The translations under genes and the position numbers were made by a program. DNA of 64,000 nt, taken from assembly GCA_020284085.1 (NCBI GenBank), contig JACEVL010000145.1, forward strand, positions 1,049,983 to 1,113,982, read 5' to 3'. Under the pieces are notes generated by a model. The model was given only the letters and a program-made list of their open reading frames with translations, had not been told where the DNA came from and searched no databases. Shown one piece after another: positions 3,126-61,170 of this stretch. Each line of letters begins with the position of its first letter. The first letter of the stretch is position 1. This DNA is from Aporrectodea caliginosa (lineage: Eukaryota; Annelida; Clitellata; Crassiclitellata; Lumbricidae).

Positions 3126-3163
3126 CGACGCAAATCACCTTTGTTAAGGCACAGTGTTGTTAA
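3126..3163 (+). repeat. Dispersed two-tier hairpin, class 2, sense
   Basis: The outer arms CGACGC and GTGTTG pair, partly through G-U, and frame a loop containing CTTTGTT. The usual class 2 upstream block (CCGGATAAAGGAGGAGGG) immediately precedes it, and GTTAA follows the stem. Confidence 0.6.
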
Positions 3164-3981
3164 GAAGGAACTTGCTAAATTCGGGACTTTCCCAACCCGT
3201 TCGTAGTACATAAGTCTAAGATCCAAGTGGGCTGTGACTAGGTAAGTAAGTAAACCAGTGTTTAACGAAGCCCTATTTCTGAAAGAGCCTTCATGTCGCC
3301 CTCGTAAAATGCTGATCTTCCTATGAGGCTGTAAATACACGACCGCCCCGCCCCAAATGGGAATGGAGAGGGTCACCGAAATGGTTATACTTGCGATCAC
3401 CATCACCGGCGATCTAGGAGCATCAGCACACGCCCGTGAAGTGGTTGGTGCCCGATTCGGATAGATACACGCGACCAGAATCCTGAATGGACACGGACTC
3501 CCACCAGCAGCGTCTCACGAGTTCACCCGAGCCACCACAATGGCTCGCCTTTCTTTACGCCTCTCCTGCATGTGGGGGTTACACCACTGCAAGCGACCGC
3601 AACGGACACCAACGGTTTCTGCAGAGAGTCAAGCGACTGATGGGCTAATACCCGCCCAAGCATGCAGCCTGATGTGGCCTCATAGGCGTAGCCACATGAA
3701 GGCAGGAGGAGGCAGTTGCCTCCTCTTGGATTTTCCCGTATTTGCCTCCTCTTGCCCGAACTCCATCGCCATACAAATCTGCATGCAATTTACTTACTTA
3801 CTGCACTGTTCAAGCGAATGTTGTACCGTACGGCGTATACTATTTCCTGACACACAGACACAGTTTTCGTTTCCGGTAACAAACGCCTAACTTCAGTATT
3901 TTTCAAGTAAATTGTACTAATCGAATTATTGTGTATTATCGTCATTCCGACTCATTCGTCAATTCGTCAATAGTCATTATT

Positions 3982-4063
3982 ATGTCTGCGGGGCCGCCAA
4001 ATAAGAAACTTCGACAGATTGTGCTATCTTTTGCCAGCCAAAAGCCAGCGAAGAAATACACAG
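3982..4063 (+). pseudogene. Transposase first exon remnant of hAT-like element
   Basis: An ATG opens a 27-codon stretch starting MSAGPPNKKLRQ and containing VLSF. It ends at 4063 in front of a GTAACG splice-donor-like sequence. Length (82 bp), phase and start resemble the exon at 47483-47564 in another hAT-like element, which starts MSSGPPLKAFKQ. No following exon is found, because the rest of the gene is missing from this 1.1-kb element. By itself it cannot make an active enzyme. Confidence 0.55.
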
Positions 4064-4116
4064 GTAACGACAGGTTATTAGTAATAACGCCTATGGTTAT
4101 TAGTTATAATTAGTAA

Positions 4117-4275
4117 CGAAGCTTCTCTTGAAGAAAAGACCTAGTTTCATCAATCCAACTTTATATACTTACGGAAACAATTATTTCCATCATCCAGCTT
4201 CTATTTAATCAAACTTCCATTTAGGCAAGAAATCATTCTCATCAATCCCTGCAGCTTCCATTTTAAAGCAACAAT
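4117..4275 (+). repeat. ~40-bp minisatellite inside the hAT element
   Basis: Imperfect units of about 37-50 bp carry the theme CATCAATCCAACTTC followed by TATTTAAGCAAAG-like sequence. The same unit appears at 11650-11800 on this strand and at 32985-33300 on the other, inside different elements. Confidence 0.7.
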
Positions 4276-4357
4276 GTAAAATAATTTAGCAACGTAAACT
4301 AGGGTTTAACCGTTATACCGTTAGGATTAGTAAATAGTAATTATGGTAACTTTGTAA

Positions 4358-4509
4358 GGGGCTTCTATCCCCCCTAAACAACCGGGCTCAATCCCTCTCC
4401 TTCCCCCCTACTGTGAGTGAAGAGATCTGTAACTTGTAAAAGAAACACTCTCCCCTGTTTTTCACTGGGCTCAACTTGAGCCCACCGTGTATAGGGATAG
4501 AAGCCCCTG
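4358..4509. mobile_element. Short nested inverted-repeat element (MITE-like)
   Basis: AGGGGCTTCTATCCC opens and its reverse complement closes a 152-bp segment within the hAT at 3681-4785. There is no ORF and no clear target duplication, so the class is unknown. Confidence 0.45.
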
Positions 4510-4514
4510 ATTAT

Positions 4515-5160: not shown

Positions 5161-6176
5161 TTTTGGACTGTACCAAAGAATTAGTTTTTCAAACCCTATT
5201 TAATACACACATTATACGATCTATTGACGGTCTGACGGTTATGGACAGCAAAAGCCCACGTTATGTGTGTGCTTTCTTCAATGTAATAAGTTGCCTTTTG
5301 CCAACTTTCTAGTTTTCAATAAACGAAATTATATATAATTATATTCTCTTTTGTCCAGGCTTTGGACTGGCATTATCATTGTAACGGTAGTGGCGGAGTT
5401 AAAGTATGTAAGTAAAAATATTTTTGAATAGTTTCAACCATTCGTCTGCTGGCATAACACGACCTTTCATTAACAATAATTTTTACTTTAAAGACAAATT
5501 ACTCGCCGCTCCTATTCAACTTATTTATAACACAGGAGGAAAACGTTTTTAAGGTGTCTAAGTAGATGTCACCGTAACTTATCCTTTCTAGTTCGTTTTA
5601 TGACAACGTACAAGCAGCAGTTATTGTCCAATATTTAACGACAGAGAATAGGTGTAAACTGGAAACTTTAACTGTCCATGGTTGGGCGTTTTAGAAAATC
5701 AGAGATTACATATTATGCTATTACAACTACCAGGGCAATAGATTATAGTCCTACGGACTGATCTTCTGGATATTGGTCTTAATTTAGACTTGTCATTGGT
5801 GTGCCATCGGATGATGCCTTGTGCATTAGACACCGGCGCAATAGAAGTTAATAATTACAATGCAATAATAATAGGCTCACATGGCCAGCGACGGGGGTTA
5901 AGTCCTAATATTGATAAGCAAGCAGGGTAGAATCTGAACAGCGCCTTAGAAGCCGAAATATATATAACGCTGATGGAAACATTTTAAAGGTGTCGTACAT
6001 TAACCAATGTTTTAACCACATCTTATGGCAGCCAGAGCCGTTGATGTCGACTTTACCTTGCCTCTTTCGGCCAACTTCATAATGGACAACTGTCAGCTTG
6101 GTAACCATCGCATTCACAGGCTTTAGTCAGATAAAAAAAAGACGCTATGCTTAGTCTGTCAAACGGAGTGTATATC
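5161..6176. other. No gene; decayed hairpin-unit fragments
   Basis: I see only fragments of the dispersed class 2 unit (CCAGGCTTTGGACTGGCA followed by TAGTGGCGGAGTT near 5355-5400) and an AAGGTGTCTAAG box near 5552. No ORF with family features. Confidence 0.4.
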
Positions 6177-8156: not shown

Positions 8157-8626
8157 ATTACATGTAATTGTACATGTTAGTACATTTACATTAGATTTAT
8201 TTATGTACAACAATCAGCTGCTATCTAACACATAAAGAATTACAAAATTAATTGCAAATTGAGTCCAAGTTATTTCAGATTATTTTTTAAAATTTCCATA
8301 TGCAAGCAATTTTTTAGACATATTAATTCATATTATTCCCGTTTAACTAGCAACATCTTACGTAATGTTTACCAGTTTTGTTTTTCCGTTAACATTAATT
8401 CTTATTTTTTTATCATCATCATATTATGGCTATCAGAGCCACTAGCGTCAGCCGTACTTTAAATACTCATAAGGGGTACTCAATAATTCGTTATCGAAAA
8501 TTATAATTATATCGTATTAGAATAACACGATTTAAAGGTGTTTAATTCAGCTGAATATTTGAGTTGTTTAGACATCATACGTAGTTTTTTTGTTTTCTGC
8601 GGGCTAAAAATAATTACTTAGTTACT

Positions 8627-8667
8627 GTTTAAAAACGCTGTGTCATAACAAAAAGGATTAACGTCAC
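8627..8667 (-). repeat. Dispersed hairpin, class 2, antisense
   Basis: GTTTAAAAACGCTGTGTCAT opens the copy and GATTAACGTCACCC closes it. Outer arms GACGTT and AGCGTT pair with two wobbles. The usual CTCCTCCTTTAT block follows. Confidence 0.65.
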
Positions 8668-9376
8668 CCTCCTCCTTTATCATATCCTGGGTTTTGGAAG
8701 TTGGAACAACTAAAGTAGCCTATGAGATTGGTGGAGTTGGGGATGGGGTCAAACAATGTAGCGACATCTTTTGATAGCAGTCTGTTGATGCCGATTGAAC
8801 GAATTTTCAAACAGTTTTCACGGTTTTTCTGTATAGCATACTGCAGCCCTAATAATATTTTCAAGTTCGGTCATTAGATTAATTCCACATTTTGAGTTTG
8901 ACGACATCTTTTGCCAGTGGACGGCAGCATTTATTTTTGATAGTTCTCGTCGCTAATGTGGAATAATAGAGCTCGAACCTTTGGAAGAGGATGAGGGCAT
9001 CGTAAACGGCCATGGGATCCAAATGTTTGTTAGACACTGAAAACTACAGCGACTGCCACGTACGATTTCTAAACAATGAGAAAAATCTGAAAATGTCGAA
9101 ACGCGCTCAAATCTCTTAATCGCTTCTTTCTGGCACAATAATGCTTTCATTAATTGGCGAATCGAGCGTCTATTTACTTTTCCCGATAGATCAGCAAGGC
9201 TTACACCATAAGTGAATGCACTAAAATTACACTTATATAAATTATGGCGTAGGGCAATAAACTAAAGCGTCTGCACAGAGCCAACTATTTGCCGTATGGT
9301 CGAATATTTAGCGACATTTTACGTAGCGTTATCCATTTTCTTTGCTATTAACATACTGACTAATGTTTATTCATTT

Positions 9377-12594: not shown

Positions 12595-12781
12595 TTAACA
12601 AAGGTGATTTGCGTCGCCCTCCTCCTGTCTCCAGACTTAAGACTGGCACCAAGACAGGCAGGAGAATGGCTGAGGTGTTTATTTATAGTGTCTAATCTGA
12701 GTCGAATTTTCAACGTAGTTTTGAGTGTCTAGCGACATAATTATTACATAAAGTTTTCTATATTTTTGTAATTTTGTCATT

Positions 12782-12820
12782 GTTTAACAATGTCTTATGG
12801 CTGCCAGGACCATAAACTTC
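12782..12820 (-). repeat. Dispersed hairpin, class 3, antisense
   Basis: GTTTAACAATGTCTTATGGC, CTGCCAGGACC, then ATAAACTTCGAGCC. The loop arm is well kept; the outer stem has decayed. Confidence 0.65.
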
Positions 12821-12971
12821 GAGCCTGCTTTACATGAGGTTACCCAGGGTCAACTTATAATGGTGGTTGAACGAAAATTAAATCTTTATAGTGTTTGGAA
12901 GAACTCACTAAAAGGTGTCCATTTCTAGTTGACAATTTAAACTACCTGGTATTTGCGTGTGTGTGTCCACA

Positions 12972-13011
12972 GTTTAACGGCAGCTTATGACAACATAGGC
13001 CGTTGCCGCCG
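12972..13011 (-). repeat. Dispersed hairpin, class 1, GC-stem variant
   Basis: In sense the outer arms are CGGCGGC and GCTGCCG, seven pairs with one G-U. Inner arms are GGC and GTC around CTATGTT. Against GACGTC stems elsewhere, several pairs changed on both sides together. Confidence 0.8.
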
Positions 13012-13703
13012 ACAAAGATTAGTTTTGGCATATTACAGCTCTTTTTAGTTACTATTTGCGCTCATTTGCAAACGATTTATATGTCTTGTCTGTTCCACAC
13101 AGAGGTGTGTACAATCAGTTTCCCCATTGAAATTAATAAGAAAATAGGCATTGATCCAGGCTAACAGAGAGCAATAATCTACGACTTTAGCCACGGCTTC
13201 TCTTCAGCCAGATATTGACAACATGGCTTGTAAATAACAAGACTTGCTGGACATTTACGTCCCACGTATTGTATAATGAACTGTGTAAGGAGCTTTTCAT
13301 AATCCACAGGAATATAATTATATAAAGTGAAATGAAAATTATTTATAATTATTGCGTTTGGAAACTGTTTAAAAGATTTCGAAATAAAGCAGTGGGTTTA
13401 AGTGTTTTACCGCGTTCGGAATACGATTTTCTTTTCCAAAGACCACCATATTACATGTAGTTAGTACAACGTTTCTGGCCAACGATTGATTTTCACACTA
13501 GAGGACGCTGTCGAGTTAAAACCTCTGCGCCTCATTCTGTGTCGTAGTAATTAGCTCGCTCTTTTTGATGCCCTTCTGTAGTTTGTCGAGGGGTTGACTG
13601 TTTCACAGTAGATGGCGCTTCTGATTGCGACCCCCTACGTCTGTTTTCGATGTATGTCGTAAGTGTTTTTTTCGCCCCTTTCTCTGGTCGGTCTACTTTT
13701 GAT

Positions 13704-16706: not shown

Positions 16707-16901
16707 GAACAAAGCAAAAATTACAACTCACATATATATATATATACTGCCGGAAGAAAGCGTTTTTAAGGTGTGTAAAGTGAGGCCCTAGGTTTGAGTG
16801 CTTCCCGAAATATCTACTTAACCCTCGGGCTACCAAGAAGGGGGGTTATTACGACCCCCACCCTAGGTTTTTTGCTTCGAAAAAACGTTTTCTGTTCCAT
16901 T

Positions 16902-16940
16902 GTTTAACAACGTCTTATGGCTTCCAGGACCGTTAACGTC
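16902..16940 (-). repeat. Dispersed hairpin, class 3, antisense
   Basis: A best-kept class 3 copy: sense outer arms GACGTT and GACGTT pair with G-U at each end, and inner GGT/GCC enclose a seven-base loop. The AAAGGTGTATAAA box follows at 17024. Confidence 0.8.
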
Positions 16941-17123
16941 TACCGTACATAAAGAACCAGGGCCTTTAAGTTAATATCAATTGAACGAAATTTCAATGTA
17001 CATAGTTTTGGAAACAAACGATTTAAAGGTGTATAAACGGAGCAGTAAGTTGGATTGCTTCGCCACACCTTACTTTAACATTTCAAATTTCTTCTCCCAT
17101 TAGCATTGGAAGTGGTGTCCGTT

Positions 17124-18430: not shown

Positions 18431-18532
18431 TTTTAACGACTAGCTGTGTGGTAACAAAGACCATTAGCGTCGCCCTCCTCCTTTATCCAGGCTTGGGACT
18501 GGCACTGTCAGAAAGCGAACAGTGGCGGAGTT
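18431..18532 (-). repeat. Dispersed hairpin, class 2, with its conserved neighbour block
   Basis: The hairpin (CGACTAGCTGTGTGG then ATTAGCGTCGCCC) is followed by CTCCTCCTTTATCCAGGC, TTGGGACTGGCACT and CAGTGGCGGAGTT. This block accompanies most class 2 hairpins (31370, 57010, 57247 and others), so the copied unit is at least 100 bp long. Confidence 0.75.
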
Positions 18533-18895
18533 AAGCGACTAAGCGAATTATTAACAGTGTCGGAAGCAAACTATCTAAGGTGTCTAGACAGAGTCCAACG
18601 TATCCACAGCATGTATATATTAAGCACATCCAACAAGAGTCTACAAATGAGCATAACCATAGACCAAAATTCATAAGAAACATCATATCATATTTATTAT
18701 GATTATGACATCTGATGCTATCAAACAAACACTTAGCATCAGTTTTGACACATAAGTTCAAAAGTAAAATCGTTTTTTATTACAGATTTCAGAATATTTG
18801 ACAACGTTGATCTGAAATGAGATTCATAATCTCCTTTGTCTACAATTTTTAAATCTAAAATTTTTAAATTTTTAAATCTTTGAGGACAATTTATA

Positions 18896-19544: not shown

Positions 19545-20285
19545 CTTTAAAGTTGTTGATGTATTTCCGTTCATTTTCTTGTAATGTTCTCATGGCGCGT
19601 TAAAAAATTTGCTATATATAGCCTCCGAAATGCACGATTTAAAGGTGTTTAAACGCAGCTGTGTATTTGTGTGCGCTGAGATATCTGACGTATGTTTTCA
19701 TCTTCGGATAAAAAACCCGATTAGTTAATTACTGTTTAACAACGCTGTATCTTGACAAAAAGATTAGTCTTGCTCTCCTTTTTAAACTTCTCTTGGGTTG
19801 GGAACTACCAAAGTACGGGCGGTGGCGGAATTGGAGAGTGGATCAAACAGCCTAACATATTTTGGCATCAAAATCTGTTGAAACATATATTTGAACATTT
19901 CTCACGGTTTTTCGTAGGCTGTGGCATAATGCAACCCTAATATACAGTGTGACGTTCAAGGAACAGCTTAATTATAGCTTTTGGTAACAAAAGTGGTCGA
20001 CAGCAATAATTTTTAACACTTCCAACGTTCATTGAAATAATACAGCTCGAACCATTGCTAGAGTTTGAGGCAATCATAGAGTGTCGTTAAGGCAAAGGAG
20101 CTACAGCTATTGCTGTATGCGATTTGTTGAACAATCCAATACTTAGCAAATGTTGAAAAGCACTCAAATCTATTAATCGCACTATTTGCTTCTATTATTA
20201 TTTCGACCAATAGATTTCGACTCTGTATAATCGTCAGCGGCATTTTAGATGAGAATTAAACACCGAAAATGGCGTATGAGATTTG

Positions 20286-20400: not shown

Positions 20401-20595
20401 TTCTGTTCGTTTCGGTGCCAGGTCAAAATCCGGGGAGGTCAAGCCGAGGATAAGATAGTCGTTGATGAAGTTTATCGATTTTTACGGTTTTCGATAAATA
20501 TCGTGTAGTTAACATTGCGAGGAACATTATTACACACCTCTTTTAAACTTGGTCTTCCTCCTATAAATAAAAGCAGCAGCGTAGGATAGTCTGGT

Positions 20596-21415
20596 TTCAG
20601 ATGCCGCCTGGCAAATTATAAATTGAGCATGTTTTCTAGATTTAGCCCTATCAATAGTTGCCAAAACGCCAAGAACGAAGGACTTTTTCATTTTTGTAAT
20701 TGGATCATCATCTTCTGTATCATTTACTGATTTTGAAATGGTTATTGCCTGATAATCTTTGTCATTGAATGACAAAAATCTTTTGGTTAAATCATCTGGA
20801 GAAGTTTCCCCATTAGAAGTAATTTGCACATCAATTGGTGTTTGTGCTTCAATTGTGGAAAGAATAACTTCTGTTTTATTTTCTATTCCAGTTTTAACTT
20901 TTGATGCATATGTGACACTATTTGGTATAGGAACATTAGCATTGACATTTTCACTCTGGATCTCGTCAACTTTTATCATAGCATCAGCAAATTTGATATT
21001 TTGCTCAGCTCTGATTCTGAGTGCAGCTTGCATTTTGATATAGACTGCACAGCCTCTATGTGCAGCACTGTGTGCCTCTCCACAATTAGCACATCTTAAT
21101 TTAGTTTTATCAGGACATTCAGTAAAAGAATGATTACCAGCACACCTGCTGCACACAACTTCCCGAGTACAGGAACCCGTTCCATGACCATAAATTTGAC
21201 ATCTGTCACACCTCATAGGTTTAGGCACATAAGGATGAACCCTATACTTTCTTCCATTTACTTCCAAGAATTCTGGTAGAACAGTTTCTTTGGGATAAGC
21301 TATGAGCGTTGCTTTGCTAAATTCAGGATTACCTATTCTATTAATGTGATGGGCTCCTACTTCTAATGCAATTTCATTTAAATTCTCTTCATTTAAATTT
21401 AAAAAAAACAGTAGA
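20596..21415 (-). pseudogene. ORF1 (gag-like) of the I-type LINE, inverted and truncated
   Basis: The minus strand encodes a nucleic-acid-binding protein with three zinc knuckles in a row: CDRCQIYGHGTGSC, CSRCAGNHSFTEC and CANCGEAHSAAHRGC. This is the arrangement of ORF1 in I, Jockey and related LINEs, where the protein coats the RNA. The open frame continues upstream of the first ATG at 21267 (FLEVNGRKYRVHPY and before) to the junction near 21415, so the N-terminal part is missing. Its last codons (20530-20595) lie in flanking DNA if the target duplication is correct. The inversion separates it from its own promoter, so it should not be made as part of a normal LINE RNA. Confidence 0.8.
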
Positions 21416-21434
21416 TTCTTATTTTTTTTCCATT

Positions 21435-31228: not shown

Positions 31229-31274
31229 TGGCAGAAGTTATTTCGAACAGTTCTTACCGTTTGTAATGGGAATA

Positions 31275-39460: not shown

Positions 39461-39473
39461 AGAAAGGACGAGG

Positions 39474-39514: not shown

Positions 39515-39617
39515 AACAACTAACCGATCAAATACGGTATTAAAATGGTGGGAACTGCATATTGTGTAATATATAATTCCAACTGAACGGTGAGAATTGT
39601 TCAAAATAATTTATGTC

Positions 39618-41497: not shown

Positions 41498-41556
41498 ATG
41501 CATGTATGTATGTATGTATGTATGTATGTATGTATGTATGTATGTATGTATGTATG

Positions 41557-41587
<31 letters not shown>

Positions 41588-41590
41588 TGT
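41498..41590 (+). repeat. (GTAT)n microsatellite, left side
   Basis: About 22 GTAT units, then AATGTAATGTAATGTAA. With 41993-42066 it frames a LINE fragment. Confidence 0.92.
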
Positions 41591-41599
41591 AATGTAATG

Positions 41600-41992: not shown

Positions 41993-42066
41993 ATGTATGT
42001 ATGTATGTATGTATGTATGTATGTATGTATGTATGCATGCATGCATGCATGCATGTATGCATGTGT
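41993..42066 (+). repeat. (GTAT)n/(GCAT)n microsatellite, right side
   Basis: About ten GTAT units, then GCAT units. It is on the 5' side of the LINE fragment. Confidence 0.9.
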
Positions 42067-43009
42067 GAGATTACTTGCTGTACATGACCTAATTGCGGAC
42101 TGCGCCATCCAATCTCGTTCCTTCCTTTCTTAAAATCTTGGACGAACACCATTATTAAAGGTGCCACTGAATTAGTATCTATTGTAATGTCGAAGAAAAT
42201 CGTTTTAAAGGTGTCAAAGTGTGCGTGCACAATCCTTCATTATTTCTTTAACTGAAGCTTGACAACAGTGAATGCAGAAACAGTATTGTTAAACAACATT
42301 TTTACTGTTATGGCTCTTGATATCGAGTTTACTTTATTTAAAATGTTAAATTTGAGTTAATTGTTTAATTTTTCAGTAAATTCTGCGTTTAGCGCCAACT
42401 AGCGGCTGCCATGACCGTTGACGTCGACCTCATCTGAGTTTGTCAGACTTGATTATCAGATTCTGTCGGATGGATCCACAGTTTAACGGCAGCTTATGAC
42501 ATCATAGGCCGTTGCCGCCGACAAAGATTTGTTTTGGCATATTACAGCTCATAAGATTCTGTCGGTTGAATGAAACTTTTATTATAGTGCAGAATAGAAA
42601 CGTTTTAAAGGTATCTAATTAAGCCTCACCTCGCGTTCATAGATAGCTTCACAATGAGGAAATTTTTTAATGAAGCGACATCTATTATTAATTTAACGAA
42701 ATAAATTTTTGTCACTACAGGGCGTTTGCGTTCCGGACATGACTTAGCGGAACTTGGTGACTTCAACCCAGTTCCAAGCATGGAACCATACGCATCAAAG
42801 ATCTTACTTTCGACACAGCTAATTGTGTTACTTGTAACCTGTTGCGTTTTGTCAACTGGATTATTTTGAAATTAAACGAATATGAATATGAATGAAAAAT
42901 ACCCGTTGCGTACTATGTAAGCTTACCTGCTCACAGTGCCTGTTTCCTCTAGGGAAGGCTCAGGATTGGCGCATCCTTCAGAGGCGATACTATAACTTAC
43001 AACGAAACA
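42067..43009. other. No gene; hairpin units, antisense
   Basis: AAAGGTGTCAAAG at 42186, a class 3 remnant near 42395, GGATGGATCCACA plus hairpin at 42481, and AAAGGTATCTAAT at 42604. At 42930 CAGTGCCTGTTTCCTCTAGG recalls 38560-38620. Confidence 0.45.
42481..42520 (-). repeat. Dispersed hairpin, class 1, GC-stem variant
   Basis: Outer arms in sense CGGCGGC and GCTGCCG, as at 12972, with loop CTATGAT. Preceded by the inverted tail GGATGGATCCACA. Confidence 0.8.
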
Positions 43010-47564: not shown

Positions 47565-48156
47565 GTAAGTAGGCTACAACTAAATAAATTGCATTTCACA
47601 TTTATAAGCAATTCGCCACAGCGCAAAATAATATGAGCATAAGAAAAATTTGACAAACGGCATTAGGCCTATACCTGACAAATTCCTGTAAATAAATTTT
47701 ATTTTCTTCCATGCAAGAAATCCATCTTCATCGCATGTCTCATAATCGTAATAGTAATAGTAATGGTATTTTTGATTGCTAAAGCAGTTATTGACTTATT
47801 GTGCTATTGTCGCCTTTTATGTTATCAATATTGAGCGTAATAAACCACCAGTGGTTGCAAAAAATGACAAAATATTGTTATAGATAATATCAGGCAAAAT
47901 GAATAATTTTATCCACCTTAGGTCTGTGGCCTACACGGCTGAGGTTGGCTCACACAACTTTTAAACACTTCCCGGGCCTCCCCTTCCTCTTCTAAAACCG
48001 GCCTGTTCATCAGATAATTCTGATTCTGTTTTTCTTCTCATTCTCTCCACTATGACCCGAAGAATGATTTTGCTGGCATGAGAAACTAGTGCTATGGTTC
48101 TGTAGTTTTCACATTTTCCCATGTCACCCTTTTTTGGTATAGGTATAAAGATTGAA

Positions 48157-49835
48157 TTTTCCTTGTCTTTCTGCTTGAATATCATTCGTTTAGGAAATTT
48201 AAATAGTTTGTAAATATCTTTTATATTCTCTATAAGAGTGTCTATAAATATTTGAGCTACATCATCGTCTTCGTTTTCCGCTGTAAACATTACGGGGTCT
48301 TGCGAATATAGGTCATCGTCGAAACATTTTATATAATAACAGAATGAACTCGGAACGTGTTTTTGGTATTTGTTAGTATAGGACGTGTTAGGATTTGGCT
48401 GACAAGTGTCTATAGGTTTAATGAAGCTTTCAAAATCTGCGTAGATTATGAATGGGACTCGCATCTTTCTATAATAATTTTTAAAACTCAATATAGTTCC
48501 CGGTTCTGGAAGTTCGATCTTTTGCGCCTCGTGTTGGGAACAGTACTCGGTGTGTTTGCGTAGTGAATCTTTTCTACTGAATCCTATTAAGCATCTTTTA
48601 CAATGGTACATAGAAGTGTATGTGTTTTCTCTATGAACCGCCACCAGTCTGTTAAAGTTCTTTATCCAACAATAATGCTTCTTTTCTCCATCAGAAATGA
48701 GTAATAGATCTATACACCTATCACTCTCATGCTTTGATATATATAGTGGGAATAGGTTAACATCTTTCTCATAACCAAAAACATTAATATTAATATTATT
48801 ATTTCTCTCAAACTTACTTATCACATTAGCATCCGCCGCTACTGGAAATTCGATGCCGGACCAATTGAGATCCTCAGACTGCCTAATTAATTCTTTCGTA
48901 ATTCTTTCTGAATCTCTCGCAACAGGGTTTAAGGCTCTCGTGACGCACCATTTGAAACATTGTTCGTCTTCGTTCTTCATATTAATAATTCCCTTTTTAC
49001 TCGCTAAACAGGTCGGTAGTGGAATGTAAGAACTTCCTTTCAACGGTTTATAAACAACCGTATCGATATCCAACTTCATAACTGATTTAAACCTCCAATT
49101 ACTACCTCGCATCTGATAACTCGCCATGCTTTCCTTAATTTTATCCACTGCGCCGCTATAAATTTCACCCACGTCGGTTGCGTCTAAAATAATCTCATTC
49201 TTCGATTTAAAATTAGGTTCAGCCTCAATTACTTCCCCAGATTTCATATCTACTTTCTCCATTACACATAAAAGATTGAATTGAACTTTTACCCCTCGAG
49301 ATTTCGTTAACAGACTGACTACCCGCGGCCTTACAGCATCGAGGAAAGATGTGACGTCGATCCCTCGAGTTCCTTCGATCGTGTATCGTTTAGTAAATCC
49401 CTTAATAGCATTCGCGGTCTCTAGGATTTCAAACTTCTTTTTATTAATTTTACTAAAAATACTCGAAACCTTTAACTTCAACGAGTCTAATTTTTCATTC
49501 ACGGGTTTCTTTTCTAGAGGAGCTACGTAATTAACCAACCAATCCGCAAAAGAATTAATTTTCGACCTTACCTCGTTCTTTACTTCAGTCAAAACATTAT
49601 TAAAACGAGATTTCCAAGGAGGTGTATACTTACCTGGTTCAAGCGTTGGAACCTTAATGTCTGGAACTGGAGCGTCTAGAGGGTTACTTTCGTGTACAGT
49701 CTTAACGCTTTGCAAAAGTCTCGATGATACTAATGTCACGAGATCCGCTTTTCGCAGTCCCGAATATCTAACCAAGCCATTCTCTTTAGCAATATTTCGT
49801 AATTGTTTTACTGTTTTCGTTGTGTAGTAGTCCAT
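48157..49835 (-). CDS. Polinton-type protein-primed DNA polymerase B, N-terminal part
   Basis: About 560 codons on the minus strand from ATG at 49835. Residues 1-40 (TVKQLRNIAKENGLVRYSGL) look like a SAP/Rho-N type DNA-binding segment. The middle has NMKNEDEQCFKWCVTRALNP and SGIEFPV. A finger CKRCLIGFSRKDSLRKHTEYC lies near 410-432, and FIIYADFES near 460 is the first exonuclease motif of family B polymerases. This order is known from Polinton/Maverick-like mobile DNA in many invertebrates. The polymerase domain is missing: after FKQKDKEN the frame passes without a stop into the RTE-like reverse transcriptase. The fragment is a relic, although its frame is open throughout. Confidence 0.8.
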
Positions 49836-50227: not shown

Positions 50228-50590
50228 ACCTTAGAAATTTGGAATCTACGATTACGATTGCATGGTGTAAACTACTTTGGGACTACCACCAATACTACGA
50301 CTACTACAACTACTGCTACTGCTAATACAACTACTGCCACCACCACTATTGGAAATGTTACTGCTACTACTGCTTGTACTACTAGCTAAAATTTACTGTA
50401 AGGTTTTGTCTGCTTAGACACCTTTAACACGTTGCTATTTGAAACTATAAATGCGCCACTGATTGCACTCCGTCAGTGCCCGTCCCAATCCTGGATAAAG
50501 GAGGAGGTCGACGCTAATGATCTTTGCAGTCACACAGCGTCGTTAAACTGAAACTACTCCTACTTGTTTACGTTTCCACCGTCGTTTGGA
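50228..50590 (-). repeat. Inverted duplication, right arm
   Basis: The partner of 31275-31695 on the opposite strand. It contains the (ACT)n run, TTTAGACACC boxes at 50222 and 50416, CTGATTGCACTCCGTCAGTG, the class 2 hairpin at 50509 and GTTTACGTTTCCACCGTCGT. Confidence 0.8.
50509..50548 (+). repeat. Dispersed hairpin, class 2, sense, perfect stems
   Basis: Outer CGACGCT/AGCGTCG are seven perfect pairs. Inner TGAT/GTCA with loop CTTTGCA, then GTTAAACTGAAACTAC. Preceded by CCTGGATAAAGGAGGAGG. Confidence 0.85.
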
Positions 50591-50932: not shown

Positions 50933-51103
50933 TTTTAGAGAAAACAGAAAAACGAAGAAAAAAAAGGAAGAGGAACAGAAAAAAAACCAATTATAATAAA
51001 AGAGCCAATGGGCCAAAGAGAAATTACATACAAAAGAAAATGTAAAGACGTCAACGATCATTGTTATCATAAGACGTCGTTAAACTCAGGAAAAGAAGAA
51101 GAA
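50933..51103 (+). mobile_element. 171-bp retrocopy ending in the class 1 hairpin, 13-bp target duplication
   Basis: GATCGCTAGTTTA at 50920-50932 repeats exactly at 51104-51116. Between them lie an A-rich stretch, GAGCCAATGGGCCAAAGAG, the hairpin (51047-51085) and a TCAGGAAAAGAAGAAGAA tail. A target duplication with an A-rich tail is the mark of target-primed reverse transcription. The insert carries no ORF, so it is a 5'-truncated LINE or a SINE. It lies inside an older unit with TTTAGACACCTTGAAATCG at 50872. Confidence 0.88.
51047..51085 (+). repeat. Terminal hairpin of the retrocopy (class 1)
   Basis: Arms GACGTC/GACGTC perfect; inner GAT/ATC with loop CATTGTT. Against GGC/GCC elsewhere, the inner stem changed on both sides at two pairs. 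GTTAAAC follows. Confidence 0.87.
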
Positions 51104-51149
51104 GATCGCTAGTTTACTTAAAAAAATTAATAAATGGTTAGATAGTATT

Positions 51150-51255
51150 GTTTAACGTTGTTGTGTTATAACAAGGATGATTATCGTCGCCCTCCTTCCT
51201 TTAATATCGAGGCTTGGGACTGACACTGCCAGAGTACAGGCAGGGGCATCTTGAG
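51150..51255 (-). repeat. Dispersed hairpin, class 2, antisense, with block
   Basis: GTTTAACGTTGTTGTGTTAT and TTATCGTCGCCCTCC, then CGAGGCTTGGGACTGACACT and GTACAGGCAGGGGC. Outer stem decayed. Confidence 0.6.
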
Positions 51256-51961
51256 TTTAACGTCTTACGGCAACACTTGTCTGAAATGGTTGAAAGCGTG
51301 TCTGCTCCCAAATTACGTCCTACCTTGAATCCAATTCCCTATTATCTCTCACCAGTCGGTATTCCATTGATTTCATTATACGGAAACACTTATTAGTGTT
51401 ACACGTCTACTCACTGAAGCGTTTGGGTTTGAAGTTAATGCAAATTTGTCGAGTCCATTGATAGATCTATGAAGTTGATGTGCTATATTGTGTCAGAGAA
51501 GAGCGTTTTAAAGGTGTTTAAGGATCAACATAGTCTAAACTATTATTTGCCATCATCTCCAAAAACACCGCAATTGCAGTTTTTGCCTGTAGCATAATAG
51601 TAATAGTAGGAGTAGTAGTTATTGCATAGTAGCAATTGGGGTAGTACTAGTAGTAGTAAGTTTTAATTAATGTCATTGTTTGCGAAATCATAATGATTTT
51701 TGTCCGCTGACTTCGACGTCTGTTGCAAGCTCTGCCGAATGGTGCCTAGTTCCTGTTTAAGTAAGCTGCGTTAAAAATGTCTAGCTATAAAAGTATATTA
51801 AATATATGAGCATTATAGACGGATCTCTTTTCGCTATGAACATGAAAACAACGAATGCAATGATACGACACCTTTTAAACAAGCCAACGTTGTACTATTT
51901 AAATAGTTAGAGCTATAAATCATAATAATTTGTTATGATTGTATTGTATATTTTCTGCATT

Positions 51962-52000
51962 GTCGTCAACGGCCTTTGATGTCATAAGACGACGTTAAAC
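51962..52000 (+). repeat. Class 1 hairpin identical in sequence to the LINE end
   Basis: All 39 bases equal those at 26095-26133, and the preceding TGTATATTTTCTGCATT is nearly the same. It is a short truncated copy of the I-type LINE 3' end, followed by TGTGGTTATAATAATA. Confidence 0.85.
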
Positions 52001-52191
52001 TGTGGTTATAATAATATTATCATAACAGTACTGTACGTCATTATTATTTCTGCTGTCAACAGCCTTTGTTGTCGTCATAATAATTATGTCATCAAACACG
52101 GGATCCAACACTACCATAAGCTGTATCAACTCTGGTTCTACACTTTGTTACAAACTACTACCAGGTAATGCCAGTCCTAGACCTGAGGAGG

Positions 52192-52232
52192 GCGACGGTA
52201 ATCATTTGTGTTATGACACAGCGTCGTTGAAC
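52192..52232 (+). repeat. Dispersed hairpin, class 2, sense
   Basis: Inner TCAT/ATGA around TTGTGTT is perfect; outer CGACG/CGTCG kept. Preceded by GCCAGTCCTAGACCTGAGGA. Confidence 0.75.
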
Positions 52233-52402
52233 AGTTACCAATTATTTGGATATCTTGGAAAAATACATACAACGTACTATGTAAGATGTCTCAAAGCAAC
52301 AAATCAACGTCTCTTTAAACACCTCTAAATCATAGCTCTCGGACGCTATATGAATTTAATTTTCGATCAATTTTCTATTGTCAACTACAGAGTCAATACT
52401 AT

Positions 52403-52785
52403 TGTATTGTATTTGAACACTTGTTATAGCGTAATTACCAGATTTCCTATTCAAAGGCGCTCCCGACTACTGCACGAACGCTGAATCGGAGTTTCACGCC
52501 GAAGCGCATGAGCAATTGCGAGTGAAGGACTTGCCCATCCCTACGCGGCGACTTTATCGAACGCAACCCTCCAGCTGCAAGGCACCGAAACATACCCCCA
52601 AACCACCGCGCCCCAGTATATTGTGTTGTGTTGTGTGTTCATTGTAATCACGTTTATAATCGACCGAGCCACCCGCAGTGAAGATCCGAGAAATTAATCT
52701 CTGATAAACCGACCCGACCGGGAAGCGAACCCGGGGCGCCGGCGCGGCGAGCAGGCACCAACCCACTCGGCCACTCAGATCATTA
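52403..52785 (-). repeat. Dimeric tRNA-derived SINE, second copy
   Basis: The same B then A units as 18896-19310 in the same order and strand, with small deletions. Box B of unit A is damaged (GTTGCGTTCGATAAAG), box B of unit B (CCCCGGGTTCGCTTCCCGG) is intact. The 3' end GGGAGCGCCTTTGAATAGG and TACGCTATAACAAG precedes the ATACAATACAA tail. Confidence 0.8.
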
Positions 52786-53560: not shown

Positions 53561-56120
53561 TACAAAGCAACAATCATCAAACACGTTTATCAGAGAAATA
53601 TGTCCATGTCATTCGCTAAATCGAGTAGAAATTTATATAAACGATTTATTTCTAAGGTTCTACACACCTATGTGAATTACAATTATACAAAACCACTGCG
53701 CTGCCAATACTTAAATGACAAATATAAACCTTAAAAGAGGTGTGTAATTATTTTACAGACAATGATAACTGATTTATCCGATTGGCATCGAAAAACGGTA
53801 AAAACAAGAAACTTTAACAAAGACGATCTTATCTAATTTAATACGCAAATTTTTTTCAGTATTTAGTTCTCGCCTAAAATACTGCTGACAATTATAGTGT
53901 TTGTCGAAATCTATTGAACGAAATATTAATTGAAGTAAACAGTGCCTGGAAGAAGCGATTAATTTATTTGAGAGTTTTCAACATTTAGCGATTTCTTGGA
54001 TTGTCCAAATAAATCGCACATGGCTGTAGCTGTGTAGTTTCCTGTGTCTTAATGACAACCTATGATTCCTGGGGTCGTTGAGGCTGTTCTCGTCCTTTAC
54101 AGGCTTGCAGCTGTTTTAGTCCACACGAACGGTGGGAAGTGTTAGAAATAATAGCTGCCGACTACTTTTGTCTTCAAAATGTCGTTTAACTGTGGAATCA
54201 ATCTAATCCTTGAACTTCAAAATGTTTATTAGGCTTGCACTGTGCACTAGTCTACGAAAGGAAAACCGTGAGAATTATTTTTTTACATCGATATCACAAG
54301 ATTTGGATGTCGATACGCTGTTTGATCCAATCTCCAACTCGGCCAATGCCCGTATTTTGGTAGTGCCAAACCCAAGAGAAGATAAAGGAGGAGGGCGACA
54401 CTAATCATTTTGTTACGACACAGCCTTGTTTAACAGTAATTAACTAATCGATTATTCATCCGAAAATGAAAAACCTACGTAAGATATCTTAAAGCACACA
54501 AATAGACAGCTGTATTTAAACACCTTTAAAGCGGATGTTTCTAAGAATATATAAAGGTAAATTTTATTTTACGCGCCACTGGTCTCCACGAATAAGTTTA
54601 ATCTTAAGGAATGGACACTAGCTAGAATGGAAAACTTTACGTCATGTCGCTAAATATTCTGATACACGGCTCTTATTTGGCTTTGTTCCGACACTTTAGT
54701 TTATTTCCGACGTCAGATTTAGACTTTAAAGCATTCTTAGAGTATAAGTACAAGCCACAGTGAAAACTGTAAAAATTCCTATTCCGTCAACGGCCTTTGA
54801 TGTATACGATGTCTTTAAACTGCTCCATCGAAACTTAACTAATCTCTGGGGAAAAGTAAATAAATTTCCGTAACATTTCGAAGCATTTCAAGAACATGGA
54901 TGCGTGTAGAAACCATTACTTGACTCTCTCAATACTTCTGTTTCAATCAATAACTTCTTCTATTTCAAAGTGAGGTCGATGTTAACGGCCCTGGTTGCTC
55001 TAAGACAATGTAAGAGTATGGATGTGACCTGCTGTGTTAATGGAAAGAGGAAGTAGAAACCCTTAGGTTATATACAATGTAGCTACAGCCGACATATTTG
55101 ATAACAACGGCTAGCGTTAGACTCTTTCTAGATATCTTAGATAGTTTGTTTCCGACGCTGTTAACAATCAAAATTTTCTCTCAGTCGCTTTCATCCAGTA
55201 CTCTGGTAGTGCCAGGCCGAAGCTGGGGTTAAGGAGGGGCGACACTAATCATCTGTGTTTTGGCACGGCGGCATAATTAGAAACTATTATGCCATGTCAC
55301 AGAGGGATCAAGGATGTGCGGAAGTGTTCGGAAGCTTCTAAGTAGAAGAGCTGATCGTTTATCAAAAGTTCAGGCAAAGAGGCGCGAAACTTACAATAGA
55401 CATCAAAAAAGATGCAAATGTCGCACTCAGAAACGCCCTCTACCGTGAAAGAGTCAACCACTCGGCAAACTACAGAAGGAAATCAAAAAAAGAGGGAAAT
55501 GTTATTACTACAACAGAGAAGAAAGCGCAAAGGTTTTAACTCGATAGCGTCCTCTAGTGTGAAAATCAGTCGTTGTCCAGAAAACGTTGAATTAATTAGA
55601 TGTTTGGAAAAGAAAATGGTATGCCAAACGTGGTAGAGCACTTTATTCCAAGGCTTCATTTAGACACCTTTTAATCGGTTTTAAAAACACAATATAAGCA
55701 ATTTTCGTTAAATCACCATTGAATGTCCATCATCTTCCACTAAAGCAAGATCGGCGTAAATTACCTTGGCAGCCGTAAGGCAATTTGCTAAAAAAAATGA
55801 CAACACGACCGAAATATATGACAACGACAGAGAAGAAGGAAGCGCTAAATAAATAGCTTTATTGGCGGATAATCTTTTTAACGCAGCGTCCTTAAACAGC
55901 AACTAGCCACCAATCGGCAGCTTTTCAACAGGCGTCGTAGTCTACGGTCAACGAGCAACCAAACGCTGGTGGATGCAGGACATTCTAAATTGCGACAATT
56001 GCGACACCTGTTACGGACCGTCCCCCAAACCATGACACAATTCCTGATCTTGTGCCGAAAGTAGACGGCACTGCAGCTGAGACTACAAGATGAATGCCAC
56101 CCTCAACAGTTGACCTACAC
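53561..56120. other. No gene; hairpin units, mostly sense
   Basis: AACACCTTTAAAG at 54525, hairpins near 54394, 54786 and 54976, CCAGGCCGAAGCTGGGGTTA at 55212, GACACCTTTTAATCGG at 55663. At 55560-55990 similarity, inverted, to 17540-18060. No family features in the frames. Confidence 0.45.
54786..54820 (+). repeat. Dispersed hairpin, class 1, sense
   Basis: GTCAACGGCCTTTGATGTAT then ACGATGTCTTTAAAC; the 5' outer arm is half lost. Confidence 0.6.
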
Positions 56121-56123: not shown

Positions 56124-56267
<144 letters not shown>

Positions 56268-56670: not shown

Positions 56671-57204
56671 TTTTTATTTGATTCTAGGCACTGTTTTCAA
56701 CTCAAAAGCCCGACTGTCCGCCAACTAGTTTGTTTCTGACTCACAATTTTATTATTTTATACGGACTTTTAATGACAATGATTAAAGATTACCGCAGAAG
56801 GTCGCCAAAACAGGTTACTATTTTTGTACTATTTTCATAGACCAACGGTGAGAGCTGCTTCAAATATTTTCGCTCAATGATAGTAGTAGAAATACTTTCT
56901 GTATTTTCGCTCAATGGTAGTAGTAATAATAATAATAATAATAATAATCTTTTCTTTATTAACGACACAATGTGCTTACAATTTACAATTTACACATTAA
57001 TAATAGCCTAATACAAAGACCATTAGCGTCGTCCTCCTCCTTTATCCTAGGCTTGGGACTGGCACAACCAGAGTGCGAGCAGTGGCGGAGTAATTTCGTT
57101 CAATTATTTGAGAATAGATGTACATAGTTTCTGAAAAAGCGATAGAGTTGTATAAACGTAGATTTGAGTGCTTTGCAACATTTAGCGTTCATTTTAGTAG
57201 TTTC

Positions 57205-57305
57205 AGTTTAACGACACTGTGTGTTAACAACGATCATTAGCGTCGCCCTCCTCCTTTATCCTGGCTTGGGACTGGCACTGACCGATGACGATCAGTGGCG
57301 GAATT
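57205..57305 (-). repeat. Dispersed hairpin, class 2, antisense, with block
   Basis: Sense arms CGACGCT/AGTGTCG. Followed by CTCCTCCTTTATCCTGGC, TTGGGACTGGCACTG and CAGTGGCGGAATT. Confidence 0.75.
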
Positions 57306-57580
57306 ACTCAGCGTTCATTTTCTTCTGTCTTTTGATATTTCAATAAATCCCAATTCGCAGTACTTGCAGATTGCAATCCTGAACGACATCTGATGGCTTC
57401 CATGGTTGACGTTGCCCTCCCTTTTATTCATTGTTGGGACTGGCGCCACCCATAAGCGGAAGTGGTTGAGTCCAATGAGTACAAAGGTGTCCAAATGTTG
57501 CATTCTGTGTTTTTTTCGCTATTCGTCCATCTGATGTATAAATAACAATTACAAGCAAGCGAGCAGTTATTGTTTTCAAT

Positions 57581-57620: not shown

Positions 57621-58352
57621 ATAGAAAAAAGGTTCTTTACGGTTTCACTTGGAATGTACCAATGTTATAATCGATGAACTGATGAATTAATCCAAGGCTT
57701 AACGACATCTAGTTACAACAAAGGACGTTGACATAGTCAGAAATTATTTTCAATACTATGGCATAACAAGTACTATTACTGATACTACCACTACAATCTT
57801 TGTCATGAAACTAGGTAAAGAAAGTGTAAGGGTGTTGGGTGCCTTCTCAAACACCTTTAGAACGTTGATCATCGAAACTACATGTATAGTAAGTACGAGC
57901 TTCGGTGTTTGCTATTCGTCAACATACACAAACCCATTTTAAGCAATAACTAAGGACCAAGAATATTAGAAATATAATTTTCGAGCTAATTCTGTAATAC
58001 ATAAAACCAACATTGAATCATATTGATGCTATGATTGTCATGTTGAAATTGATAATTGAATCTGTATGTAGGCCTGCTATGATTGATGGATAATGAATAT
58101 TGAACATCGCCTGTAAATGTAATATTGATAGTTTGATGGTAATTTAGATAGATGAATGTGGTGTGATATTCTATAAAATATTGTTAATAAGATTGAGGAG
58201 AAAACAGTTAGTAAAAGAGCCTGTTTGGCCACAGAAAAAATCGACAACAACCACCTGTCAGAAACGGAAACAAAGACAAGAAAAGAGAAAGAATAGCCTA
58301 CTGATGAAAAACATTATTCGAAAATGAACTGAAATGCATCAAAAACTTTTAA

Positions 58353-58391
58353 GACGTCAACGGCCTTTGTCGCTAAAAGATGTCGTTAAAC
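58353..58391 (+). repeat. Dispersed hairpin, class 1, sense
   Basis: Arms GACGTC/GATGTC, inner GGC/GCT (one wobble), GTTAAACATTGGATAAATT after it. Confidence 0.78.
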
Positions 58392-58913
58392 ATTGGATAA
58401 ATTAAAAATTCGGTATTTGCTACCTTCAATTCCCGCTATTTGTTGAAAACTATTTTCAAGCGAGACCTGTTAATGTGACGTATGGTGTTGACAAATACAT
58501 AACCCAGCTCGCGATATTGCCTACTATCGTTTGGTGCCTGTCCTAATTATCGGTAAAAAAGGCGGGCAACACGAGTTATCTTTGTTATGACACAGCGTCA
58601 TTGAGCATAAACTACTCAGCTAACTGGTCACTAGCAGAGAGTGCACCGCTGTCGTATTCGGGTGCAACGGGTCGGATGTTTGGCTAACGAGAGCCATACC
58701 TTTCACCTTCATCTGTTGCGCTGTAACTCAGCAAATTCGTTCGGTCCGGTGTTTATTTTCAAGTGAATAGCGTCAAGAACAAAGAATGCAACAGGTGGAC
58801 CTCTTTCTAAGCGATAGCGTTGTGTTAATTAGATAAAAAAAATTATACTGAACTATTAGGAAAAGAAAAAACCTATAAAAAATGGAGTGAAGCACTTAAA
58901 TCTGCGGCTCTCT

Positions 58914-59060
58914 ACAAACACCTTTAAAACGGTTCGTACCTACATTATATATATGTAATTCCGTTCACTCATTCAACTCAACTAAGATCATCTGGAACAA
59001 AATTTAATGTAATGGAGGTTTGACGTTAACGGCCCTGGCTGCCTTAAACCAGTGTTAAAC
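58914..59060 (+). repeat. Class 3 unit, sense: box plus hairpin
   Basis: AAACACCTTTAAAACGGTTC, then ATTATATATATGTAATTCCG, TTCACTCATTC and, at 59022, TGACGTTAACGGCCCTGGC and GTGTTAAAC. This is the reverse complement of the arrangement at 16902-17035, about 150 bp long. Confidence 0.65.
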
Positions 59061-60480
59061 AATGGACGACACTTAATGGAAAAGAAATAAAATCATTTAC
59101 GTAATATGTCGCTAAACACTCAAATCTACGGTCAATATTAAACTCTGCTTAGAAACAGGAAATAATTTGCTTCAGAGGTCATATATGATAAGTAAGTAAG
59201 TACGTGCTTTATTGAACCGCCTGCAAACGCACTGCGGCAACATCGGATAAGATTCACTCCGCTGCAACCCAAACTGTGGTTATGTCAGTCGCAAGCCAGG
59301 AGACTGGAGATGGACGATGCTAATCACCTCTGTTAAAACAGCAACTAACCAATCATTCGCTTTCGTATCGAAGGCTGCTAAATTATGGCTGAGTTGAATA
59401 AGTAACCGGAAATTACTCATATATAATATAGGTACGAACCGTTTTAAAGGTGTTTAAAGAGCGCCGATGTCGACTGATGGACGGTCGTGTTTGGAAGAAA
59501 TTAAATCCCAAAGTGAAGGAGCTGAGTATTAAACGAATACAACAGACATGAACAAGAGCGAACTTCACAACAGACGTCGAGAATGTCGCACTCATAGGCG
59601 CCCTCTACCGTGAAAGAGTCGATCGTTTGACTAGCTGCAGATATAATGACATTTAGCGAAATATACAACTACCCTAGAGAAGAGAGCGCTGAGTCTAACT
59701 TGTAGCCGACTCGACAGCGTTCTCCAGCACCAAAGAGTCGAACGTGGCGCAAAATTACAGCAAACAAGAAAATATAGATGGGGGGGACTACTTTCTGCAA
59801 TTAGAAGAAACAAAAAAGGTGATATATTTAGGCTTGGGACTGGCACCACCCTGTAAACGGCAGAAAATAAAGCGGCGAGATTAAGAAAACTTCAGAGACC
59901 CCAGCAGAGCTAGTTGGATGTCTTCTTCCAACATACTCCAACAGACCTCTTAAAAACAGAACTGGAAACTCCTTATATAGCGTCGTGTGACTAGTTTTTG
60001 ACCGATAATTGGGGATCAGAAAAATGTCACATCTTGTTTACACAACAAATGCATTCAATTAATAATATTTATGAAGGCAAAATGGACGAATAATTATGTT
60101 TGCGATGCAAAGAATATCCAGTGGAGATTTAAAACACCACATTTAATATCAAAATTTGAAGTGGGGCGACATCTGTGGATAAGTCAGAAACGGATATACT
60201 GTTATTTTCGCGAGTAAACCATTCCTCGAAATATTGATTCCTTGATATTTCAGCAGACTTTTGCTTTTTCTTTCTCTTTCCGCAATTTGAATCTGAAGGC
60301 AGTTGAGTTGTTTCAAAGGATGTAGACTTCGTCTGTTTTCCCTGTTTCCCATGCATGTTTCCCGCCTTCTATTAACGAAATATCCTTAATCCGTAACTAC
60401 AATCTAGAGAAATCAAGTGATCCTAGTTGAAATTGAAGAATGAAACGGTGGCCATAGTTGAAGGGTTAATGTCCGGAGTG
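59061..60480. other. No gene; unit fragments
   Basis: A GTAAGTAAGTACGTGCTTTA tail piece near 59192, GAAGCGTTTGC-type words near 59215, AAAGGTGTTTAAAG at 59447, TTTCACGGTAGAGGGCGC inverted near 59600, TTGGGACTGGCACC at 59835. The rest, including 60000-60480, shows nothing. Confidence 0.4.
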
Positions 60481-60870
60481 AATCGATCGTCGGTTGGTAT
60501 CTTCATCGAATGATGATAAGACAAAGATCTTCAAAGCGATGACTAACGGTCGACATAACAGTCAATGTATGCCATAGACGAACGCCGAATGTTGACGGGA
60601 GGATCCCTATGCCTCACAACGAGAGTTGGAGCATAATTATAGAGGAAGTGGAGATGGAGTGGGTGACCCGGTCGCTCAGAATATCGCAGTGGAGTATATA
60701 GGAGATGAACTGATAAAAATATATACAACTAACGATCTCATCAGAAATCAACAAAAAGAAAGAAATATGAGATATACAGAAAACTTAAGAAATAATTTTC
60801 GACAAACAGCGAGCGAAACTCATTGGAAAATGCCCAAGTTATCAGAAAAACTACGAAGAAACTAAAATGT
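60480..60870 (-). repeat. Old dispersed repeat, copy C (inverted)
   Basis: ACGAACGCCGAATGTTG, GGATCCCTATGC and GTGGGTGACCCGGTCGC are inverted versions of words at 10860-10960; TCAACAAAAAGAAAGAAATA matches 10790-10805. Confidence 0.6.
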
Positions 60871-61131
60871 AAATTTCAGAATAATTGTCAACGGCCATTT
60901 TTGCAACTGCCTTGTTGCGCTGTCAGCAAAAGAAATGTACGTTAGACGCCGCGCAAGATTCAAAACTACATTACGCTTCGACACCTTTAAATTATATCTT
61001 TCTGGCGCAATATATTCGTAATATTCACCTTATTTACAATTGCCTTTCTTGCCCGGTTGATTGCGGTTCTCATGGGTTGTTGAGACGGCGAAATAAGCAA
61101 ATGACCTGCATAAATCAAAATAATTTCTGCC

Positions 61132-61170
61132 GACGTCAACGGCTTATGTTGCCACAAGAGGTCGTTAAAT
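61132..61170 (+). repeat. Dispersed hairpin, class 1, sense
   Basis: GACGTC/GAGGTC with one mismatch, inner GGC/GCC around TTATGTT, GTTAAAT after it. Confidence 0.75.

Follow-up and report, generated by a model that had tools for sequence, protein, structure and literature searches.

A predicted twister ribozyme joined to a LINE-type tail hairpin in short retroposons of the annelid Aporrectodea caliginosa

The 64,000-nucleotide stretch at positions 1,049,983 to 1,113,982 (forward strand) of contig JACEVL010000145.1 of Aporrectodea caliginosa (assembly GCA_020284085.1), here called the window, contains many copies of a small hairpin followed by the motif GTTAAAC, which raises the question of what kind of element the hairpin belongs to. 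A sequence-only reading of the window had described it as a dispersed two-tier RNA-like hairpin with compensated stem changes. We propose, with a probability of about 0.83, that the hairpin, GTTAAAC and a short tail form the 3′ end of a long interspersed nuclear element (LINE) with endonuclease, reverse transcriptase (RT) and RNase H, and of several short non-autonomous retroposons, one of which, class A, consists of a twister ribozyme and the hairpin. The evidence comprises the joint structure, the ends of the copies, target-site duplications, pair-preserving changes, recent copies and a LINE with a 3′ end of the same type. Rather than an isolated RNA gene, the hairpin is the 3′ end of retroposons; this, and the position of the class-A hairpin directly behind a twister ribozyme, had both been missed.

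The motif GTTAAAC occurs 45 times in the window compared with 13.9 expected, and none of 100 shuffles contained as many; the hairpin is absent from some of these 45 sites. The example sites of the sequence-only reading lie where it had placed them, those on the minus strand including 12972, 42481, 30369 and 27525. From the 45 sites, 26 copies were chosen by eye and aligned by sequence only (alignment A1), and a covariance model of the hairpin (R1) was made from these 26 seeds. R1 yields 56 matches in the window at an expectation value (E) of up to 1. Of these, 45 have E below 0.006, comprising all 26 seeds and a further 19 sites, in agreement with the earlier count of at least 40 copies. In A1, 80.9% of 283 cells are paired, compared with 70.0% when shuffled and 23–57% when slid. 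The covariation score is 0.498 (0.290 shuffled; 0 of 500 shuffles reach the observed value), and 37 cells are changed on both sides compared with 12.7 in shuffles. With these excesses in paired cells, covariation and two-sided cells, the description of a repeated, covarying hairpin with compensated stem changes holds. Pairs with two-sided change (6 vs 5.4 shuffled) and further pair types (19 vs 18.4) show no excess.

The uniformity of the fold is weakened by one outer pair that is open in 9 of the 26 A1 copies and by the fourth inner pair, mainly a class-A feature, which is open in 19. Three sequence classes (A, B and C) had been said to share one geometry. In folding by energy only, the two-tier structure has the lowest energy in class C, in one class-B form and in three class-A forms, but another class-B form has a different inner stem and yet another a different fold. 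The third class-A form is weak in this comparison (27 of 200 shuffles are equally good), and class C folds no better than shuffles (z 0.98). In the Rfam scan of the window, no family covers the hairpin itself, save a twister that overlaps its first bases.

This twister leads to the identity of class A. The same scan gives eight matches to the type-P1 twister family RF03160 at E up to 5, with 23.3–64.4 bits, all under the gathering score of 67.2 bits. Five of the eight have a same-strand hairpin match immediately 3′, one of them weak (E 0.28), and three have none. By eye, decayed twister remains have been recognised 5′ of seven more window hairpins, with only the last twister bases at two. In the genome (1.1 Gb, 4544 contigs), 62 twister candidates were scored. 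Seven exceed the gathering score: four belong to a further type of element, class D (best 70.2 bits), and three to class A (69.4, 68.8 and 68.0 bits), while the best window copy, at 64.4 bits, stays below it. Among 30 twister loci fetched from the genome, 17 have a match to the hairpin model immediately after the twister, two of these matches being weak (E 0.03–0.04). The remaining 13 comprise 11 class-D loci, one variant without GTTAAAC (L026) and one left unparsed (L029). L026 and L027 represent a class-A twister variant with TAGGTATGGAAACTACTAC after the hairpin in place of GTTAAAC. No twister matches were obtained in 14 control genomes, and viral contigs gave 0 exact matches to the twister core.

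The class-A unit is 100 nt long, runs from AACTCC to GTTAAAC and is followed by a short repeat tail. Its body is only a twister without a P1 stem of its own, joined directly to the hairpin. From these sequences, class A is predicted to be a type-P1 twister, presumably self-cleaving, directly followed by a tail hairpin. There is no closed P1 within the element, the 5′ strand of P1 being host flank. P1 is reported to be dispensable for twister (PMC6154101). The outer stem of the hairpin begins at the base next to pseudoknot T1, at the place of P1.

The fold of the joint unit was assessed in 32 aligned class-A copies, de-duplicated at 97%, in which we assumed the positions of the two twister pseudoknots. 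The twister with both pseudoknots and the hairpin pair in 96.7% of 926 cells, compared with 92.2% when shuffled and 29–50% when slid, and 44 cells are changed on both sides (16.4 shuffled), most of them located in the inner stem and P3. At one position of the inner stem, 17 copies have C-G, 14 have G-C and 1 is unpaired. A further set of 49 twister-linked copies was selected by flanking letters and fixed spacing, not by the inner stem; many of these are near-identical relatives and hence not independent. Their inner-stem cells pair in 189 of 196 cases, whereas 2000 shuffles have a mean of 162 and a maximum of 173, a result that supports the earlier suggestion of selection on an RNA fold while the copies were active. 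The two inner arms change in concert (TCAT/ATGA in 27 copies, TGAT/ATCA in 8 and TGGT/ACCA in 5, plus minor forms), and each set occurs mostly with its own tail, namely AGTAACCAAG with CAAG repeats, TGAAACTACT with ACT repeats, and AGAAAAACCACC (at most 9 tails listed per group).

These data bear on whether the twister still matters to the element. The hairpin could be an ordinary LINE-type tail and the twister an inherited, dispensable leader, with the AACTCC junction lying simply where reverse transcription runs to the end of an RNA that was started in the normal way. The class-A head could be a relic, given that the genome also contains an RTE-like LINE with a 5′ twister, and the class-B and class-C copies have spread without a twister recognised in the Rfam scan of the window. 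Against such a leader, P2, P3, P4 and both pseudoknots are each 93.8–99.0% paired in the 32 copies, with two-sided changes in P3, and three class-A loci score above gathering. We regard this explanation as unlikely.

The ends of class A have been defined from near-identical genomic copies. With one copy as query, the best 40 of 2168 first-look candidates scored are 97–100% identical, so that part of the family is young. Thirty near-identical loci were read and 21 parsed, in which the length from AACTCC to GTTAAAC is 100 nt in 20 and 99 in one. Target-site duplications scoring 9–14 flank 20 of the 21, compared with scores of at least 9 in 4.3% of 396 swapped flanks, a figure inflated by five loci that share one flank. 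In another set of 11 class-A loci, nine reach the duplication score, one of them (L025) at a wrong position chosen by the automatic rule. The 5′ junction falls exactly at AACTCC in 10 of 20 loci and no more than 1 base from where U^A cleavage is expected in 15 of 20; the offsets are 0 in ten, −1 in three, +1 and −3 in two each, and −2, +2 and −5 in one each. Twister is cut at a U-A step, U5-A6 in env22 (PMC6154101), and in class A this step falls at the base preceding AACTCC. In one class-A sequence, the matches to the A and B boxes of RNA polymerase III (Pol III) have 3 mismatches each, equalled by 910 and 631 of 1000 shuffles, and a Pol III head was rejected as the boxes are at chance level. 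Class A is short, non-coding, dispersed and flanked by duplications, as a short interspersed nuclear element (SINE) is; without a Pol III box it is only SINE-like in the strict sense.

In the window, duplications are clear for two class-A copies and measure 12 and 15 bp. The first is a full-length copy (AATTCC...GTTAAAC) at 57206-57305 on the minus strand (twister 57242-57310, hairpin 57203-57252; RF03160 51.9 bits, R1 53.8 bits), whose 12-bp duplication AAAATGAACGCT lies 4 bases ahead of the element start. The second, of the TGGT/ACCA subfamily, is located at 18431-18532 on the minus strand (twister 18468-18537; 64.4 and 36.7 bits), with the 15-bp duplication CGCTTAGTCGCTTAA. Duplications are unconvincing for the copy at 31320-31419 on the minus strand (twister 31357-31424; 61.2 and 53.8 bits) and for the copy with a decayed 5′ end at 50444-50548 on the plus strand (twister 50444-50511, hairpin 50502-50551; 30.5 and 58.2 bits). 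An old, weak copy lies at 3064-3165 on the plus strand (twister 3064-3129 with 23.3 bits, E 1.8; hairpin 3119-3165 with 14.5 bits, E 0.28). Three minus-strand twisters give no R1 match: 57028-57097, with a broken hairpin (35.1 bits; none at E up to 1), 5337-5405, without a hairpin (37.1 bits), and 2541-2613, without an intact one (36.7 bits). Hairpins 3′ of a decayed twister, the upstream part being judged by eye, are found on the minus strand at 51147-51196 (R1 47.0 bits), 8624-8673 (33.0), 19731-19779 (40.5) and 30367-30415 (41.9), and on the plus strand at 52186-52235 (36.0) and 54389-54437 (28.9). At 39468-39517 on the plus strand (53.9 bits), only the last twister bases remain 5′ by eye.

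The partner of these short elements may be a LINE of the window. Its frame of 1281 amino acids (21366-25211, plus strand) contains endonuclease, reverse transcriptase and RNase H domains (PF14529, PF03372, PF00078, PF00075), and its 3′ untranslated region (UTR; 25212-26151) ends in the hairpin at 26087-26136 (R1 57.3 bits), with GTTAAAC at 26127-26133 and an A-rich tail. This 3′ end raises our confidence in assigning the hairpin to retroposon 3′ ends. Parts of this LINE occur elsewhere in the genome: L033 contains the frame end and the greater part of the UTR (75%), in L034 a piece of RT is fused to the end of the UTR (88%), and L001, L002, L012 and L025 hold shorter pieces. Thirteen alignments to the LINE end stop within ten bases of one another, 13–22 bases past GTTAAAC, and their 5′ starts are staggered; those that start at the hairpin itself may belong to other families. 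A common 3′ end with staggered 5′ starts is the pattern of 5′-truncated LINEs, and part of class B is therefore this LINE's own end. The 3′ flanks of 30 RT regions were measured, and three of these regions, in L012 and L034, have a hairpin on their own strand no more than 500 bases away; the one near the RT in L012 is an inserted class-A copy. An 11-bp repeat at 20585 and 26152 flanking the LINE is weak, since 279 of 2000 random pairs have a common 11-mer (a few too-close pairs being skipped). Just upstream of the LINE frame, on the opposite strand, a frame of 245 amino acids (20530-21267, minus strand) has zinc-knuckle-like cysteines and no Pfam match; it could be the inverted 5′ part of the LINE.

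Class B includes this LINE end and short retroposons. The plus-strand hairpin at 51954-52003 (61.4 bits) is identical to the LINE end over all 40 letters compared, and the best R1 match of the window is the class-B hairpin at 38836-38885 on the plus strand (66.2 bits). Another class-B hairpin lies at 12969-13018 on the minus strand (CGGCGGC/GCTGCCG; 65.2 bits). With the minus-strand stretch 31175-31279 (105 nt, hairpin 31188-31237) as genome query, the best 40 of 808 candidates scored are 81–94% identical after the query itself, and 33 of the 40 begin at query position 14–27. An 84-nt class-B retroposon with the head GAGCTGTAATATGCC lies at 42470-42553 on the minus strand (hairpin 42478-42527; 64.0 bits) between copies of the 12-bp duplication CCGACAGAATCT at 42554-42565 and 42458-42469. 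The plus-strand hairpin at 51039-51088 (55.1 bits) closes a retroposon of about 171 nt with the 13-bp duplication GATCGCTAGTTTA. Class-C hairpins are located at 16899-16948 (minus strand, loop CCTGG..; 49.5 bits), 59014-59063 (plus; 40.3) and 12779-12828 (minus; 40.8). Duplications have been accepted in four class-B copies (window 42478 and 51039, L045 5660 and L003 1482).

Several observations weigh against the assignment of these copies to LINE-dependent retroposons headed, in class A, by a working twister. Nine of the 30 loci read were excluded from the junction count (four without the exact core used for finding, five with an altered start), and with five of the 21 parsed loci sharing one flank, about 17 independent insertions are represented. 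Of 28 distinct flanks, 21 have T at −1, which leaves an uncertainty of one or two bases in the position of the element end. The partner bases of P1 pair in 41 of 112 cells (0.366), slightly over the background of 0.299. In the 32 folded copies, neither pairs with two-sided change (5 vs 3.8 shuffled) nor further pair types (21 vs 20.3) are in clear excess. In A1, the class-A hairpins match the LINE hairpin in only 18–26 of 39–40 letters, and the partnership of class A with the LINE therefore rests on the fold and GTTAAAC. Finally, the search of 55 class-B and class-C copies found no duplication in 38, and four of the 17 repeats found were accepted. The window LINE is a candidate partner whose enzyme class A may use.

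Most likely, it is through the hairpin that the LINE reverse transcriptase selects its template for target-primed reverse transcription. A class-A copy would be transcribed within a host transcript by readthrough, the twister would cut directly 5′ of the nucleotide with which it begins (U^AACTCC), the RNA so released would offer its hairpin to the LINE enzyme, and copying into a new site with staggered ends would produce the duplication. In this scheme catalysis, recognition and readthrough are steps that we infer. Class A may then be a minimal promoterless retroposon of two working parts, a predicted ribozyme that would free the 5′ end from any host transcript and a hairpin that would recruit a foreign LINE enzyme, with the outer stem perhaps replacing P1 by stacking on pseudoknot T1. 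We advance this two-part model tentatively, at slightly less than even odds; if it is true, one 100-nt RNA would be both self-cutting and enzyme-recruiting. Alternatively, as in a retrozyme, the ribozyme could cleave and ligate the RNA into a circle, which would then be the form that is copied. Animal hammerhead retrozymes are non-autonomous and occur as linear and circular RNAs of about 170–400 nt (PMC7229834), but the class-A copies read are single units, each with one ribozyme, and have duplications and a 3′ tail, although dimers were not the object of a dedicated search. A circular intermediate is considered very unlikely.

Class D, the other twister-bearing type, has the order twister, hairpin with GTAAAAC, and LINE body. 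Ten class-D loci were read. L042 (G000:C528:605700-615600) extends over about 7.4 kb, with the twister at one end and a repeat tail at the other; its endonuclease frame (PF03372) and RT frame (PF00078) are some 4 kb apart, and the element is thus probably interrupted. Seven of the ten loci (L037-L041, L044 and L045) retain at least about 130 nt of the beginning, joined to a variable 3′ piece; this piece is not seen in L043. The class-D 3′ end differs from the GTTAAAC hairpin. Its RT has 3340 relatives among 8000 scored; many of the 120 listed carry PF20049, and the named ones among them include fish, lancelet, snail and fluke. Class D, which we presume to belong to the RTE clade, looks like an RTE-like LINE with a 5′ twister, resembling the published RTE twister elements.

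The order of class D suggests another origin for the short copies, in which the hairpin is the 5′ part of a LINE RNA and the short copies are deleted 5′ ends. However, in 20 of the 21 parsed loci the class-A copies end with GTTAAAC and a tail, followed by the duplication, the class-D hairpin folds with a loop of 3 nt and not 7, and the window LINE carries the hairpin at its 3′ end. This origin is highly improbable. A DNA transposon, such as a miniature inverted-repeat transposable element, or a host RNA gene family would also produce short dispersed copies with a conserved fold, but the duplications differ in length, the tails consist of short repeats, and 5′-truncated relatives share one 3′ end, which leaves this proposal with almost no probability, although no search was directed at terminal inverted repeats.

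Comparison with known systems defines what is particular to class A. At the 5′ end of RTE retrotransposons, twisters that are truncated yet competent are described as conserved, and a role in 5′-end processing has been proposed for them, with work in preparation cited (PMC7761336). Class D fits this pattern of a truncated twister at the 5′ end of an element without long terminal repeats (non-LTR), whereas class A is 100 nt, non-coding and made of twister and 3′ hairpin only. The L1Tc/ingi-clade LINE and SINE-like elements of trypanosomatids, SIDER included, have a common 5′ hepatitis delta virus-like ribozyme (PMC4035085), in a 77-nt sequence that also activates transcription (PMC8190864). LINE and SINE-like members there likewise have a 5′ self-cleaving ribozyme in common, but ribozyme class and host are different, and class A joins the ribozyme directly to the tail hairpin. 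Animal hammerhead retrozymes resemble class A as short non-autonomous non-LTR elements with a ribozyme and, in some, target-site duplications; they differ in the hammerhead and the circular RNA intermediates (PMC7229834). Stem-loop recognition has been stated for stringent-type LINEs (PMC5135761), and SINEs with such a tail combine various heads with one 3′ stem-loop. Class A differs from these in its predicted ribozyme head and in that no Pol III box was found, and it has the fold and GTTAAAC in common with the LINE more than the letters.

Ribozyme-headed SINE-like elements are thus already known, and what appears to be new here is a predicted twister with a directly joined tail hairpin. Leads toward relatives are provided by octopus RTE and SINE ends with a hairpin before GTTAAAC and, in fish, by RTE 5′ ends that combine a twister with a hairpin and GTAAAAC. 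A twister SINE was absent from the literature searched, which included the available parts of PMC4918200, PMC10085705, PMC7936874 and PMC8216279, with partial coverage and few subscription papers or preprints. If active, class A would show that a retroposon can live without a promoter of its own through self-excision from host RNA. It is a very short natural RNA in which the ribozyme and reverse-transcriptase recognition can be tested separately, and it could account for some of the scattered twisters in animal genomes. The LINE tail family, for its part, gains a defined, covarying structure.

The window has several other features. The sequence AGACACCTTTAAA is dispersed at 27 places from 2286 to 63525 with at most 1 mismatch, compared with 0.25 expected, and its copies often precede a CGACGCTATAAATA-like piece. 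A frame of 624 amino acids at 47961-49835 (minus strand) has Rho_N at one end, while its other end matches the start of RVT_1 with a score below cut-off; it seems to be a junction of two elements. Matches of the TGTA repeat at 41489-42074 to mir-297, mir-1277 and others are below gathering, look like an artefact and were rejected. A tRNA-Gly (gcc) was predicted by ARAGORN at 52709-52782 on the minus strand.

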